Part shown: positions 48,400 to 59,714 of the stretch, one piece after another
Layout of the letters: each line of letters begins with the position of its first letter
Position numbering within the stretch: the first letter of the stretch is position 1
From: Thunnus maccoyii
Lineage: Eukaryota; Chordata; Actinopteri; Scombriformes; Scombridae
Reading direction: 5' to 3'
NCBI RefSeq assembly: GCF_910596095.1
Contig: NC_056540.1
Coordinates: forward strand, 15,712,501-15,776,500
DNA: 64,000 bases
Position numbers and translations under genes: made by a program
The notes under the pieces: model-generated
What the model was told of the DNA's origin: nothing
The model's database searches: none
The model's input: only the letters and a program-made list of their open reading frames with translations

Positions 48400-51300
48400 T
48401 CATTGCTGGGGAAGTTCTGACGGCTGTTTCTTGGGTTTCAGAGTGTCTATGAGAGACTGGACGCCGCGCTTCACGCTGGTGGTCACTCGGCGGGTCACAG
48501 AGTCCGCAGCGGGTGAGGAGGAGCAACCAGCGCGTTGGGAGGGCGGCCGTGCCACCAGACACTTCTGATACCGCAGCTGAGAGGGAAGAAGACAGGCTTA
48601 GATGAGTTTTTATCATTTGGGTTTTGTAGAAAAATAAGGCAAGATGTATGTCGCTTCTAGCTTGTTGATCATTTATTAAAGGATCAGTTGAACTTTTTGG
48701 GAAATTTGCTTATTTGCTTTCTTGGCAAGAAAGTGAATAATTTCCTGAAACTATTCTTTTAAATACAAAATTTCCATTAATATTTATGTAGGAAACAAAA
48801 TGACACACGTATACCACATCATGTTTTATCATATGAGCTTACCACACATGCTGCCTGCACAGCCTCAGACACACTGCCTGCGTTGGGGTCACACCAGAAA
48901 ACATGGCATTGAAAGTGCTGGTTTCCGGTGTCCATGATGAAGGCAAATGTGTGTATGTCCCGTCCCACACCCATGAAGGACAAGAAACGGACACGACACT
49001 CCACCAACACCTCCTCTTCCTCCTCCTGCACAGACAGCCAAGAAGAGAATCAGCTAAATTCGGCCTAAATTCTGATCTATTAGACCGACAAGCACATATA
49101 CATCTTTTATCTATCTGTTAGTGGTCAGGATAGCAACAAAAAGTCCCTTGCCTTTTCTTTGATGACAGCCAGAGTGGTGTCAGCAATACTCAGTATGACA
49201 GGAGTCCAGTCTTCTTTGCCTGTGGAGGACACAAGGCTGTCTATGGCCCCATTTATGATGTCCATACCTGGAGACAAAACACAGGAGACAGTGAACAGAA
49301 GGATATATTACAAGGGTGCAGGATGTCTTGTAAAGTGTGTATGGGTGTCAGTGTGGGTTCAGTTTTACCTATGGGGCGAGACACAGATGTCATACCCAGA
49401 TATAGCACATGGAACTTCTGCACCAGCTCGGTCTTTGGCATGGGAAACTCTGCAGAGAGAAAACACACACAAACACACGTTAAAATACACTCAAATCACC
49501 CGTGGGGGGATTTTATCACACGACAACATCTAACGAAGCTCCAGAAGAGAAGTCCACACATGATAATTGGCTTAAACTAGAGAAATAAACAAACGCTTAT
49601 GAATATTTTAATATTTTAGGGTGGCTGTTGACATGATTAGGGCATGAAAAAATATATTCACACACAAGCATGCAAGAATTCAGAGAGATGGATGTTTCAT
49701 GCATGAAAATCAAGCCATGCCTGTTTACACAATGGCCTGTAGGCAGAAAAGATCGTCATACACAGGGAATGGTGATCAAAGATGTATCACCTGCAATCTG
49801 CAAAGGAGTTAACATCTTTTACCCTCAGGATCTCTCTATTAACACGCCATGCAATTAGCTTTAAAAGCTTGAGATGACTTCTGATGGGTAGAATTCTCAA
49901 AATTATATAAAAAGTGGTTAAATATTTTAGTACGCAGTTTGCAGATTGTCAATCCTTGAGTGTGATAAAAAATGAATAACAAGAAAAACAACACAGTGCT
50001 AAAAAGAGAGAGACCCAGAGAGAACCACCATTAAAATGTTGGAAGAAGTTAAGTAGTTAAATATAAAAGTCTGTTCTTGGAAGATTACTTGAATATGAGG
50101 TATGCTCTATATGATCTCCCAAAAAATTAACATTGATTTTAAAGGGGACATCACATGATTTTTGAGATTTTTCTGTCATTTATATACTATTATGATGTCA
50201 GACGTCTATGTTTAACATGGTTAAGTTCCAAAACTTGACACGAATCTATGCGAAAATGCTGCCTTCAAGTCAAAAGCTCAGGTTTCAGCCTGCTGTGATG
50301 CTCCGTTTGCAAAGATACTTAAACTTCCCCATCAAGCTGACGTCAGCACATTAGCACACGCCCACAAACGGCTGTCCATTCCATATATTTTGTTGCTAAG
50401 GTTGTTCTACAAGCTGTTTGTGTTGTCCACTCTCATATTTCAGATCACAATCGGGCTCGAACATTTACGGATTGAGAGGTTTATATTTTGAGTGAAGACT
50501 GTGTGTTGATGTAGCCTCCAAAGGTGGGGTGTATTCCAGAGAGTGGGTTTAGTGAAAACTGAGTTTGTTCAACCTGAGATGAGTTTTCAATTCTAGAAAG
50601 AGAGGTAACTTAAACTCTGTGAACCTTACCTGCTCACTGGCAGGTTTTCTTCAACAAACCCTGAATTTCTCTCAATGTCTCCTCCCTCTTACAGAGCCAG
50701 ACACATTGTTTCATTTCCTCCCTCACTCAGTCCGTATCAAAGTGTGTATCGAAGCACATTAATTAGTGGAGGTTTACTGTCTGTCAGAATCTAAATCCTG
50801 GCTGGATATTAGATTGTTCCCCAAGGACTTTCTAAAGTTATCGCTTTTATAAACATCAGTCATTTCTTCGAACAGCGGGTTTTTGCTCTCACATTGAAAT
50901 ATTACACAGCATGAATTCAGCCTCAGCTCAGAGTAAAACCTCTGCATGTCCTTCTGTTATAACACCGTGACTCTGTGCACGCAAGACAGCTGGCAGTTTG
51001 TTAGAGCAGCTCCTGCACTGAAATGTTTACTGCACATAATGTGTAATCTCAATTTAAATCTAAAAAAATGGTATGAAGCATCATTCCTATAATATTGGAG
51101 ATTATATGTAAATATTTCTGTGTGGGCAGGACTGTGGTGCAGCTGTAGAATGTAGTTTGAAAGTGAGTTTTTAAAATTGGCTGTGTATAGTCTGAACATG
51201 TTTTAACAGCATGTCAGTGACAATGTTTCAATTTACCACATTTATTGAAGTAGCTGAAAGGAAGTCACTGAATGCTGTTGAGCCAAGATACAAACATTTT

Positions 51301-54313: not shown

Positions 54314-57300
54314 TGTGCATGTGTGTTTGTGTGTCTGTGTGTGTGTGTACCTTGTAGGGGTACATCGGAGCCTGTCTGGGAGGAGCTGCCAGCTGCAGCT
54401 TTGGCACTTTTCCTTTCAGCCATAATCTAGACGAGGGGAGAGGAAAAAAAAAAGAAGAGAGAGGATGGTAAAACACAGGAAGAAACAGGACAAAATGAGA
54501 GAGAGAAAAAAGAAGGGAGAAAAAGAAGACAAGAGATGCAGACAGGATTGTTGAAAGCTGACACAACAGAGGGTCAAGATACTGTAAGCTTTGATTTTCT
54601 CACAAATGAGCAGCTTAAAAACAAATCCCAGCAAAGAATTCCAGCTGAGACACACAAAATATTAACAAAATTTAAAGGATATGGCTAGCGAAATTCGTTT
54701 TGGAGTACTTTCCAACTTCCCTGGCTGTGGCACTCAACCTCAAGTCCATTTGCTCCTACTGCAGTATATATCTATAAAAACAGGTCACAAATATATTACT
54801 TCCTTTTTTCAAAATGGTGGAATTCCAGGAGTAAATAATGTATTTCTCAGGGACTATTTTCAGCAGCGCATTTAGTGCTCTGGTGAGCATTTATGGCAGC
54901 AGGATGGTGTTTGTGGGATCGACTCAAGATGAACTACAGTGGCTGTGTTAATCAGAATGAAGGAACATGTCAGCCAGTTCAACAGTTTGGCTCATTGATG
55001 TGTTTTTAATAGTTTTTGGACAACAATGGAGGTCTACGGGACAGAGGAATAAGCTACATCAGGCTTTGGGTATACAGACAATCAATTCATTGTTGGTTTT
55101 GGTCTTTCTTCAGATTTGTTAACAATAAGAACACTATAGAGTATCACCAGCCTTATCCTTTAAAACCTTTCCAATATTTTACATGTTTGAATTCAACTGT
55201 TTGAAAAAAAGCTGTCTTTTCTTTCCTTCTGCTCTTCTGCTGCAGTGTACATGCTCTTGAAATGTTGAATAGCCTGCATGGCCTCTGCACTGAGCTGCTG
55301 CACTCTCTTCCTGCTAGAGATACTTGATTAATTGAAGGTGCCATTAATCAAAGTCTATGGTGAGTCTGCAACTCTGCTCAGGGGGGAACATGCAAGAAGA
55401 CGCACGCGCACACACACACACAAAGGAAATATCGCTCAGCGTGCTGTGTAGCTGCAGGACTAAGGTCACCAAGTTCCTCTGCTGCAGTAAAGACAAAACT
55501 ACCAGCATGTTTAAAATAGGCGTGAAGTGTGAAGGGTCATTGTCACACACACACAGAAACACACTCCTCTTTCAATTTGTGGTAAGAGATCAGAAGAAAT
55601 TAATGTTACATTCACTTCTCTGTCTAAATGGGTCAACATGCCTCTAAAGGAGGAGATCTGTAGTTCCAGGTGGATTCATCCTTTACAAGGTCACTTTTGA
55701 CCTGAGGACAAACCGGTTTCTCTTTGTGGACACGAGGCTGTGTGTGTGTATGTATGTGTGTGTGTGTGAGAGAGACAGAGGGGGAGAGAGAGCGAGAGAG
55801 AGAAAGTGCGTATGTGTGACTCAAGTGTTGACTTTGCTTTATGCTGCAGCTTTGCACCTTTAAAGATCTGTGTGGCTCCCTGTCCCTGAGAGGGTTAACA
55901 CACTGTCACCAGCAGCTTACTCTTTCTCACACACACACACACAGAAAACTCTTTTTAAGAAACACTGCATGTAACCTGAATCTTATCTCCTCACCTCACA
56001 GTAAAGGCTCTTAAAACTTCCCTCTCCTCTAGTGAACAACACACACACGCAAACACTCTGTACCAAACTCAATTTTTTTTGTTTCTCTTTGTTTCTCACC
56101 CTAATTAAAACTTGATAGCTTGTTACAGCAGCAGATAAGCTTGTTCATGCGGAGACGGTGGTGGTAATGACACCCACCTTAGAGCAGATTTCGTGGAGAC
56201 TTGTGGCGATGGCTGCGGCAGGGGTATCACATCGGAAGACGTGGCACTTCAGCACCCGCGTGTTTTTGTCTCTCGCCACATAGGCAAAGTCCCTGAAGCA
56301 CAGACAGAAGACACAAAAACATGTACAAGAATCATCACACATGAATGACTGAAGCAGTTATGAAACAAACTCATTGTTTACCTTGATGCACCTTCATGAC
56401 GTTTGTAAAAGGGGCAGTAAGTAAGAATCTCTGTTGTCCTGTAATACAGGTGACTCTAGAGCTGCAACGGTTATTTGATTAATTGATTAGTTGCTCACTA
56501 TTATATCAATCTACAACTATTAATAATATGGATACGTTTGGAGCCATTCTTTGAGAAAAAAATGTCCAAATTCTCTGCTTCCAGCTTCTCAAATGTGAAT
56601 ATTTTCTGGTTTATATTATAGTAAACTGAATATCTTTTCTGGGTTTTGAGTTGTGGATTGTTGGTCGGGACAAAAAAAGACATTTGAGGACCATTTTCTG
56701 ATATTTTACAGACCAAACAACTAATCAATTAATTGATATAATAATTGACAGATTAATCGCTAATGAAAGTAATTGTTAGTTGCTTTCCTAGATGACTCAG
56801 TGATTTTCCAGCATGTACACTTGTATTGTATTTAAATTTGATCTACTTGTACAATTTTCTTTCCACATTATAAGCTGCCTTCATAAGGATTCTAACTTTT
56901 ATGAAGAAAAGAAAGATGAAAGAACTACAATTGATCTCACAATTTACTGATCAGGAGGAGAAATACTCAAAAATATGACAAAAAGGGAAGGAAAGACACT
57001 GTTACCTCCACAAGAGGTAAATTCTTTTAGCATATAGGAAGTAAATGATGAATAACCTCATTGTGTTAATAGGTCCATTACAGGATCCCATCTCTTTTTA
57101 AATGTGCATTTTTGTATTGATGTTATTTGTTCCATCTCATAACACTTCTTGATACCACATATTGTATGTGGGAGATTCAGGCAATTAATTTTAATACACT
57201 TAACGGGTGCCAATAACTGGTATTACTCCTTGGAGAGCCACCTTTGGACATCACTGGATATTGAGATGAAACACTTTTTGAAGAGCTTCAATCTCCTTCT

Positions 57301-59110
57301 CCTAGAAGGCACTTAGCTTAGGGCCAATATGTGGATATAATTGCCTATTTGTGTTCTACATTTTCTTCAGCAGTTTTTTTTTCAGATTTTGCCAATATCT
57401 ACAGCGTCTGGAAATATCTTGTTTACTTTCCATTTGAAATCCCTCCTGGTGTTTGAGCCCAAATTTTATTCTCATTCCTTTTATCAAGACTTTTTCGGTT
57501 GGAGTGGATTTCACATCTTTTCCCAACCCAATACTGTATGTGTTGTTAGAAAGTGACTCACTGCAAAAAAAAAAAAAAAAGTCTGTCCTTGGACCTTGGT
57601 CTGCAATAGTAACTTTTCATTCTCCTCCCTGCTCCTGTTTGCATTCTCAGCTGTTCAGCAGCGGAATAAGAAGCCATCAAAACATCATGTTGCACAACAT
57701 TTCATGCACAAGTAAAAAAAAAAAATCCACACGACAAAGCAGAATTATTATTACGCCATTTTGCATCATAATATATTTACCTCTTCTCCAGACATTTATG
57801 GTGGTGCTCTACCCTAATTAGTTCACTCATCTACTGTGAAATTGTTGCTTCATTATTCGTGTCATTTACAGGCCGCTATAAGCTTTGCTGTGTTGCTGCA
57901 ATTCCTTTTTCACCAATCAAGTTTTATATGACAAAGAGATTACTTAAAGCCCCTTTAATCTGCTTTGTTGGATGCCGTTGCTAAACAACAGGTGAATGTT
58001 TACCTGTCCTTAGGCATTTTTTGACTGAAAACGGTGTCGGCTAATTCTGGCTACAATGACACACAGGCACGTATGCATACACAAAGGCAGATGTGTGTCC
58101 CAGTGCCCGAGGAAACCGAATGCTGAAAGCTCTCTCACAGTGGTGCCACATGCCAAAGAAAAATGAAGAGGAGGAGGAGGGTGAGACTGAGAAAGGAAAG
58201 CTCCGCAGAGAAGGAAACTTTGTGCAGAGAGTGGGTGGAAGATGAAACACAGCTGAGATACTACACAGACACACACACACATACACAAGATGAAATATAG
58301 ACGCTTCTCGACCTCATTAACAGGTGAGACGAGTGGCAGAACAAAAGGTAGGAGGATGTGTGTGCAGCCAGGACTGAAATGACTGAGTAAACAGAACGCA
58401 GAGGGAAAGGGGGAGTGGGGACATGCAGAGAAGCCAACTGGATGGCAGCGTCACACACACACACACACACACACTCATATACAACGCACACTCCCAAATA
58501 ACCACAGACACAAACAGAATTATAGCATATACAGTCGACATTTATCACAGCAAGCTCTTTGTGTTTATGAGTCCATTATCCGGCCTGTCTCCTCTGCTTA
58601 ATTGTGTGCTCACACACTTTTAGGTCAATAATGCCTACCGCCTGTGGCCAGCAAAGAAAAGTGTGACAGGACGGTGTATGTGTGTGTGTGTGTTTGGAGT
58701 GTGTGTGTATGCGTCCAGTGCACTCCGTTCAGGGACATTTGAGCAGTGTGTCACCAAAGCAGCATGAGTGGCCTTGCCTCGCATACTACAAATGGTTCTT
58801 TTATGACTTCTGTGCCCTCTCTGGGGGATCAAAACGCTATAAAACAGCATGCAACTCTTAATAGGAAATAGCCTGTGGTCAGTCTGGCTCGCTGATGATT
58901 TAACACCAATGATTTAGTCCTTCAGCGGTCGCTGCTGCACTCCTGTAAAGAGCAACAGTGACTCTGGGCATACCAAAGCCACTGATTTGATGCCTACTGA
59001 CAGATGATGTGATTGCACAGGGGGAGTGGATGTCTTGACACAACGATTACTGAAAACAATGGAGAGGCACGATCACACTTGAGCACACCGCGCAGAGCAG
59101 TTACCTTTCT
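48400..59110 (-). CDS. apbb2: Fe65-like adaptor APBB2, 3' half (seven exons, 5' end outside the window)
   Basis: In transcript order the exons are 59110-59105, 56292-56178, 54426-54351, 49449-49369, 49267-49152, 49025-48843 and 48576-48400. They join in phase to 250 residues plus a partial first codon. APBB2 is a cytosolic/nuclear adaptor that binds the cytoplasmic tail of amyloid precursor family proteins. The fragment covers the end of the first PTB domain ([37 protein letters not shown]), the linker (IMAERK) and the whole second PTB domain ([34 protein letters not shown], ending [15 protein letters not shown]). The tail is [28 protein letters not shown] and the tail identify APBB2 rather than APBB1 or APBB3. 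Which teleost duplicate (a or b) cannot be told. The intron after 49152 uses a GC donor. The WW domain and the start of PTB1 must lie right of 64000. Confidence 0.95.
48675..48760. repeat. Fragment of a dispersed teleost repeat in the last apbb2 intron
   Basis: TTAAAGGATCAGTTGAACTT followed by TTTGGGAAATTTGCTTATTT and GCTTTCTTGGCAAGAAAGTG is the start of a repeat I recognise from many percomorph introns. Only one end is present, inside the 266-base intron between 48576 and 48843. Confidence 0.45.
50141..52221. mobile_element. Outer DNA-transposon-like element, split by a nested insertion
   Basis: The left end AAAGGGGACATCACATGA resembles the reverse complement of the right end, AAAAGGAGACGTCTCATGT. 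The right arm (51910-52221) is a diverged, inverted match to 63251-63560, sharing GTTCTGATTGGC, GTTAAGTTAC and AAACCCAACATTTCC. The left arm stops at 50525, where a different inverted-repeat element begins. Class is not certain; there is no transposase frame. Confidence 0.55.
50526..51907. mobile_element. Inner nested inverted-repeat element (1.4 kb)
   Basis: The left terminus GGGGTGTATTCCAGAGAGTGG and the reverse complement of the right terminus, GGGGTCTATTCAAGATAGC, are similar. Both ends carry repeated AACTCTGA/CTCAGAGTTT-type motifs (for example 51773-51880). It resembles a common fish Harbinger-type non-autonomous element from memory. No transposase is visible. Confidence 0.6.
52675..53240. 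mobile_element. Foldback MITE with long inverted arms
   Basis: The left arm (about 52675-52850) and the reverse complement of the right arm (53060-53240) share TTAAAGGA, ATATGAACACTG, GTAATCATTCCTCCTGTTCA and ACAAAATCCACAGTCC in the same order, over about 170 bases. The outer ends are TTAAAGGAAGGGTTCA and TTAAAGGATAGGTTCA. The arms can form a long hairpin. I recognise this as a very abundant percomorph repeat. Confidence 0.8.
54237..54348. repeat. (TG)n microsatellite abutting an apbb2 splice donor
   Basis: There are 74 pure bases of GT (54237-54310), then an interrupted TG stretch to 54348. On the apbb2 strand it is a CA repeat beginning within the donor GTACAC of the exon ending at 54351. 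Confidence 0.95.
54671..55164. mobile_element. Short inverted-repeat element (MITE-like)
   Basis: The left end TTTAAAGGATATGGCTAGCG and the reverse complement of the right end, TTTAAAGGATAAGGCTGGTG, differ at three of 20 bases. The interior has CAATGGAGGTCTACGG, also familiar from fish repeats. It lies in an apbb2 intron and has no coding capacity. Confidence 0.65.
56458..56780. mobile_element. Diverged hAT-type MITE with TTAAT-rich ends
   Basis: It starts AGAGCTGCAACGGTTATTTG, runs through GCTTCCAGCTTCTCAAATGT and ATAGTAAACTGAATATCTTT, and ends CTAATGAAAGTAATTGTTAG. This matches a widespread teleost repeat I know. Both ends carry alternating ATTAATTGATTA stretches in inverted orientation. 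It lies in the apbb2 intron upstream of the exon at 56178-56292. Confidence 0.65.
58452..58473. repeat. Short (CA)n microsatellite
   Basis: About 11 CA units in an apbb2 intron; similar short runs occur at 58262-58283 and 58678-58693. Confidence 0.85.
59105..59110 (-). CDS. apbb2: Six-base microexon in the first PTB domain of apbb2
   Basis: On the minus strand a pyrimidine-rich run (CCTCCTTCTGCTTCCCGGG) leads to AACCAG, then AGAAAG, then the donor GTAACT. Spliced to the exon at 56292, which starts G-GAC, and after an upstream codon ending in two bases, it yields Glu-Arg in ...R-E-R-D-F-A-Y. This matches the alternative two-residue insert known at this exact place in Fe65 proteins. Skipping leaves the frame intact (R-D-F-A-Y). 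Inclusion is probably neural. The call rests on site, length, phase and residues, not on transcripts. Confidence 0.75.
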
Positions 59111-59664
59111 CTGGTTCCCGGGAAGCAGAAGGAGGTAGGAGGAGGAAAAGAAAGGGGGTTGTTGAGGGGCAGGAGGGTTTAATTAAGAGACAGGAAAAAT
59201 TATAGATGAAAAGGGAAAAGAAAATGAGAGAAAGTAGGGAAAGCAGAGGGAAGGAAAAAAGAGAGAAATGTTATTATAATAAGTCAGAAACAGACACAAT
59301 GCTCTTTCACCTCAATCACTGTCTTCCTGTGAGGTGTGTGTGTGTGTCACATGTGTGCACTACAGCTCAGCTCGGTGTACTTTTCATTTCAGTGGCTTAT
59401 CGTTCCACTACATTATGACACAGCACACCTTTCCTGTTAGATGTGCCAACATACTTGCACACACACACACACACACATACACACACATCTTGTTGTTACA
59501 GTACTGCAGCTCTCCCTATTCACACTCCCCCCTTTTCCCCATTTTCCCTCCCAATCTCTCTTTCATCCTCTCGCTCTTTAATCTTCCTTTCGCTCCTCAG
59601 CTCTCTCTCTATCTCTCACCCCTCCACTCACTCGCTTTTCTTCCCACAACAGGAGAAGCCCTCA

Positions 59665-59714
59665 CAGAAGAAGAAGAAGAAGAAGAAGAAGAAGAAGAAG
59701 AAGAAGAAGAAGAG
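59665..59714. repeat. (GAA)n trinucleotide repeat
   Basis: About 16 uninterrupted AGA/GAA units on the + strand (TTC on the apbb2 strand), in an intron. The Glu/Lys-rich open frames across it are artefacts. Confidence 0.95.

Follow-up and report, generated by a model that had tools for sequence, protein, structure and literature searches.

The 64,000-nucleotide stretch of Thunnus maccoyii DNA analyzed here (C8:15712501-15776500 of a 782-Mb genome; hereafter the window) carries an apbb2 gene on its minus strand, and an intron of this gene holds the hexamer AGAAAG. With a probability of about 0.95, this hexamer is a conserved alternative 6-nucleotide (nt) microexon of the Fe65/APBB family; the gene that holds it is one of the two apbb2-like copies found in this fish. 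Microexons of this kind are known and were described from fish in 2015. The following features, numbered by window position, are the ones on which this interpretation draws.

59105..59110, minus strand: 6-nt microexon AGAAAG, encoding R-E-R-D together with the flanking exons and adding Glu-Arg (sequence and paralogous copies)
59111..59301, minus strand: acceptor AG and the preceding 189-nt AG-free, pyrimidine-rich run (coordinates derived from run length)
59099..59104, minus strand: 5' splice site GTAACT (sequence)
56178..56292, minus strand: downstream exon of 115 nt, part of PTB1 (translation and PDB match)

Position, reading frame and gene identity

The borders of the microexon read CAG/AGAAAG/GTAACT in the window sequence, and 81% of the positions from -40 to -4 upstream are pyrimidines. 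The original prediction had placed the hexamer between a pyrimidine tract with AG and GTAACT, within 2.8 kb free of other exons. Both statements were confirmed; the downstream PTB1 exon follows at a distance of 2812 nt. The first base of this exon, G, completes an Arg codon and is followed by GAC TTT GCC TAT. The upstream exon, which encodes IRVWGVGRD near its end, lies beyond the window and was located in the genome sequence: its last bases are GAC CAT GAC AG, it ends at C8:15788205, 16,594 nt before the microexon, and the host intron measures 19,412 nt. This exon end shows that the phase of the microexon is right, which bears out the earlier claim of a Glu-Arg pair in frame before Asp-Phe-Ala-Tyr. 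In the included form AGAAAG sits between GACAG and GGACTTTG. Skipping and inclusion both yield products in frame, and inclusion adds Glu-Arg to PTB1.

The included form aligned without gaps over 83 of 83 query residues to PDB chain 3D8D, which we take to be PTB1 of human FE65 (APBB1), and the alignment spans RER-DFAY (GRERDFAY). The exon at 56178-56292 matched this APBB1 chain with 58 bits and the APBB2 chain 1WGU/2ROZ only weakly, with 16 bits. For the PTB2 exon, scores of 119 bits for APBB2 (1WGU/2ROZ), 90 for APBB1 and 77 for APBB3 were obtained. The window gene is assigned to apbb2 because its PTB2 exon fits APBB2 best. Two further features of this gene were located.

54351..54426, minus strand: probable next apbb2 exon (ends set by eye)
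48822..49049, minus strand: open frame that includes the PTB2 exon, best PDB match APBB2 (exact splice sites not set)

Paralogous loci in the same genome

Four APBB loci were found when the PTB1 exon was used to search the genome, a count that is a lower bound. All four carry a 6-nt exon in the same intron and in the same phase. At the second apbb2-like copy (C2) the microexon is AGAGAG (Glu-Arg), the top-scoring of 22 hexamers placed between AG and GT in that intron (AG-6-GT sites). It is GGAAAG (Glu-Arg) at the C6 locus, where it ranks first of 2 such sites, and GGACAG (Asp-Arg) at the C13 locus, where it ranks first of 12. The products read RER, RER and RDR ahead of DFAY, DFAY and DFAF at C2, C6 and C13, respectively. 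Thus, the window copy, C2 and C6 retain Glu-Arg with synonymous changes only, and C13 has Asp in place of Glu. The preservation of length and phase at four of four loci is strong sequence evidence for a coding microexon. Together with the gap-free match to 3D8D, these three paralogous loci bear out the proposal that the hexamer encodes the two-residue PTB1 insert of the Fe65 family in apbb2.

The PTB2 scores of C6 are tied between APBB2 (100.8) and APBB1 (100.5), and those of C13 are 87.7 for APBB2, 81.6 for APBB3 and 72.4 for APBB1. C6 is probably apbb1, C13 probably apbb3 and C2 probably an apbb2 copy; the last assignment was made apart from PTB2 scoring, and all three draw in part on general background on the family.

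The 189-nt AG-free run that ends at the acceptor AG of the window microexon exceeds every other of the intron's 1274 AG gaps in length. Since this run is itself pyrimidine-rich, the pyrimidine content and the AG-free length are not independent facts. The run before the C6 microexon (101 nt) is also the longest of its intron, among 37 gaps; those of C2 (70 nt; 9 of 221 gaps as long) and C13 (58 nt; 4 of 129) are not. Such a long run before a microexon may reflect a distant branch point. By eye, a GAA/AAG simple repeat was also seen in the intron at about 59665-59714, roughly 550 bases before the microexon when read along the gene.

Relation to known APBB microexons

Micro-exons of 6 nt at paralogous positions in the first PTB domain have been described for APBB1, APBB2 and APBB3, with both isoforms found in mammals, chicken and fish (Li et al. 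2015, PMC4317164). The fish complementary DNAs in that report came from Oreochromis niloticus and Metriaclima zebra. The microexon of the window agrees with these in gene, size and PTB1 position, but it belongs to a fish genome with two apbb2-like copies and is known here from genomic DNA alone. In FE65, mini-exon 9 encodes E462-R463, the same Glu-Arg pair directly ahead of DFAYVARD, and isoforms lacking it are described as occurring mainly in non-neuronal cells (review, PMC8304848). Unlike that exon, the window microexon lies in a paralog, and the cell-type pattern belongs to the FE65 report. The microexon of zebrafish apbb1 (VastDB EX0013846), likewise a fish microexon but of a paralog, was deleted in a 2025 study that counts it among the conserved neural microexons regulated by srrm3/4; apbb2 does not occur in the main text of that study (PMC12626424). 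In a table of a further publication, the microexons given for APBB1 and APBB3 are 6 nt long and that for human APBB2 is 21 nt long (PMC8627023).

In PMC4317164 the first-PTB microexon is mapped on PDB structure 2ROZ. This structure fits the later PTB exon of the window with 119 bits and the exon next to the microexon with 16 bits, and for this reason it appears to represent PTB2. It may be the homologous loop of the other PTB domain on which the published placement near APP is based.

Candidate regulatory motifs and probable neural inclusion

Two motifs near the microexon were considered.

59125..59127, minus strand: UGC, starting 17 nt before the microexon (sequence; not above chance)
58848..58853, minus strand: TGCATG in the downstream intron, about 252 nt in (sequence)

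A UGC near the acceptor is presumably a motif of the SRRM4 type, as the original prediction also proposed, and TGCATG is taken by us to be of the RBFOX type. The predicted TGC is present, at 17 nt rather than about 20, but as an argument for SRRM4 it is weak. Three of the four APBB microexon copies have a UGC in the 40 nt before the exon, compared with 671 of 1648 intronic AG sites (41%), and this enrichment is not above chance (P of about 0.19, assuming independent copies). Likewise, three of the four have a GCAUG in the 300 nt that follow the exon, a raw count without a background rate from which no claim is drawn. At C2, the 99 nt upstream of the microexon lack UGC and the 300 nt downstream of it lack GCAUG. 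As these arguments from motifs are weak or lack a base rate, neural inclusion rests on the literature and not on the present sequence.

The most serious alternative is that the microexon is genuine but included broadly or constitutively in the window copy, without neural specificity. The UGC count fits this possibility. It is nevertheless unlikely, as both isoforms have been reported for all three APBB genes, in fish as well (PMC4317164), and FE65 isoforms without the mini-exon are predominantly non-neuronal (PMC8304848). An alternatively spliced exon, probably with higher inclusion in neurons, is therefore what the literature suggests for the window copy. The window copy has both UGC and UGCAUG and the C2 copy has neither within the ranges scanned. 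From this difference it could be imagined that the two apbb2-like copies have split the control of the microexon, with one of them depending on SRRM4/RBFOX and the other not. Such a division is improbable.

Chance occurrence and other splice patterns

Several observations weigh against a functional microexon. Scored with hand-entered position weights, the microexon ranks only second of 71 sense AG-6-GT sites in the intron, behind a TAAATT site (12.8 versus 12.2), and the best of 70 antisense sites reaches 13.2. Its acceptor scores no more than 3.8 bits. The antisense strand also contains three hexamers between AG and GT that read R[DE]R (Arg-Asp-Arg or Arg-Glu-Arg, a class defined after the hits were seen), which indicates that such a hexamer alone is not unusual. 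The intron flanks have diverged, with only 28 (C2), 17 (C6) and 21 (C13) of 60 upstream positions identical to the window; conservation between the four paralogs is weak outside the splice sites. Finally, the evidence for the exon in this species is confined to genomic DNA.

The antisense R[DE]R hexamers and the two unrelated, higher-scoring sites would favor a chance hexamer, flanked by splice-like borders but never used in splicing. In 1000 dinucleotide shuffles of the window intron, an R[DE]R AG-6-GT site arose in 176, but one with at least the observed score in only 5. The sense strand of the intron contains no R[DE]R site between AG and GT other than the microexon. On their own, the chance statistics of the window intron are suggestive. 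In shuffles of the other introns, an R[DE]R site reached the observed score in 8 of 1000 for C2, 0 of 1000 for C6 and 0 of 1000 for C13. The doubt over the window microexon is removed because the same exon recurs in the three paralogous introns, where it keeps its phase and is the top-scoring site of each. Given also that 6-nt micro-exons of APBB genes are published for fish (PMC4317164), a chance origin is very improbable. Still more remote is a 4-nt exon (CAGAG/AAAG/GT), or a recursive splice site serving as a mere intermediate in the long intron of 19.4 kb: the second AG is formed by the first two bases of the microexon, but an exon of only 4 nt would disrupt the frame, and the equivalent 6-nt exon lies in paralogous introns of 0.8, 1.8 and 3.7 kb, so that intron length is not the reason for its presence. 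The 6-nt microexon is thus very probably genuine, as judged from the sequence and its paralogs.

Proposed function and significance

The sequence describes a cassette exon of compatible phase whose splice sites look usable. With the exon included, PTB1 would gain Glu-Arg between GRDHDR and DFAYVARD and the frame would be kept; skipping would produce a shorter PTB1. The switch would add a charged pair to the domain and may thereby tune the strength of partner binding. For APBB1, inclusion of the microexon is reported to increase binding of Kat5/Tip60 and, to a lesser extent, of APP (review, PMC8911335). A corresponding effect in fish apbb2 would be an extrapolation from APBB1.

The finding opens no new question. 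Its practical value lies in annotation, because exons of 6 nt are easily missed. It adds a further clean example of an exon that ranks among the smallest and oldest regulated exons known from vertebrates, retained with synonymous or conservative changes only at the four APBB loci found in this fish genome.
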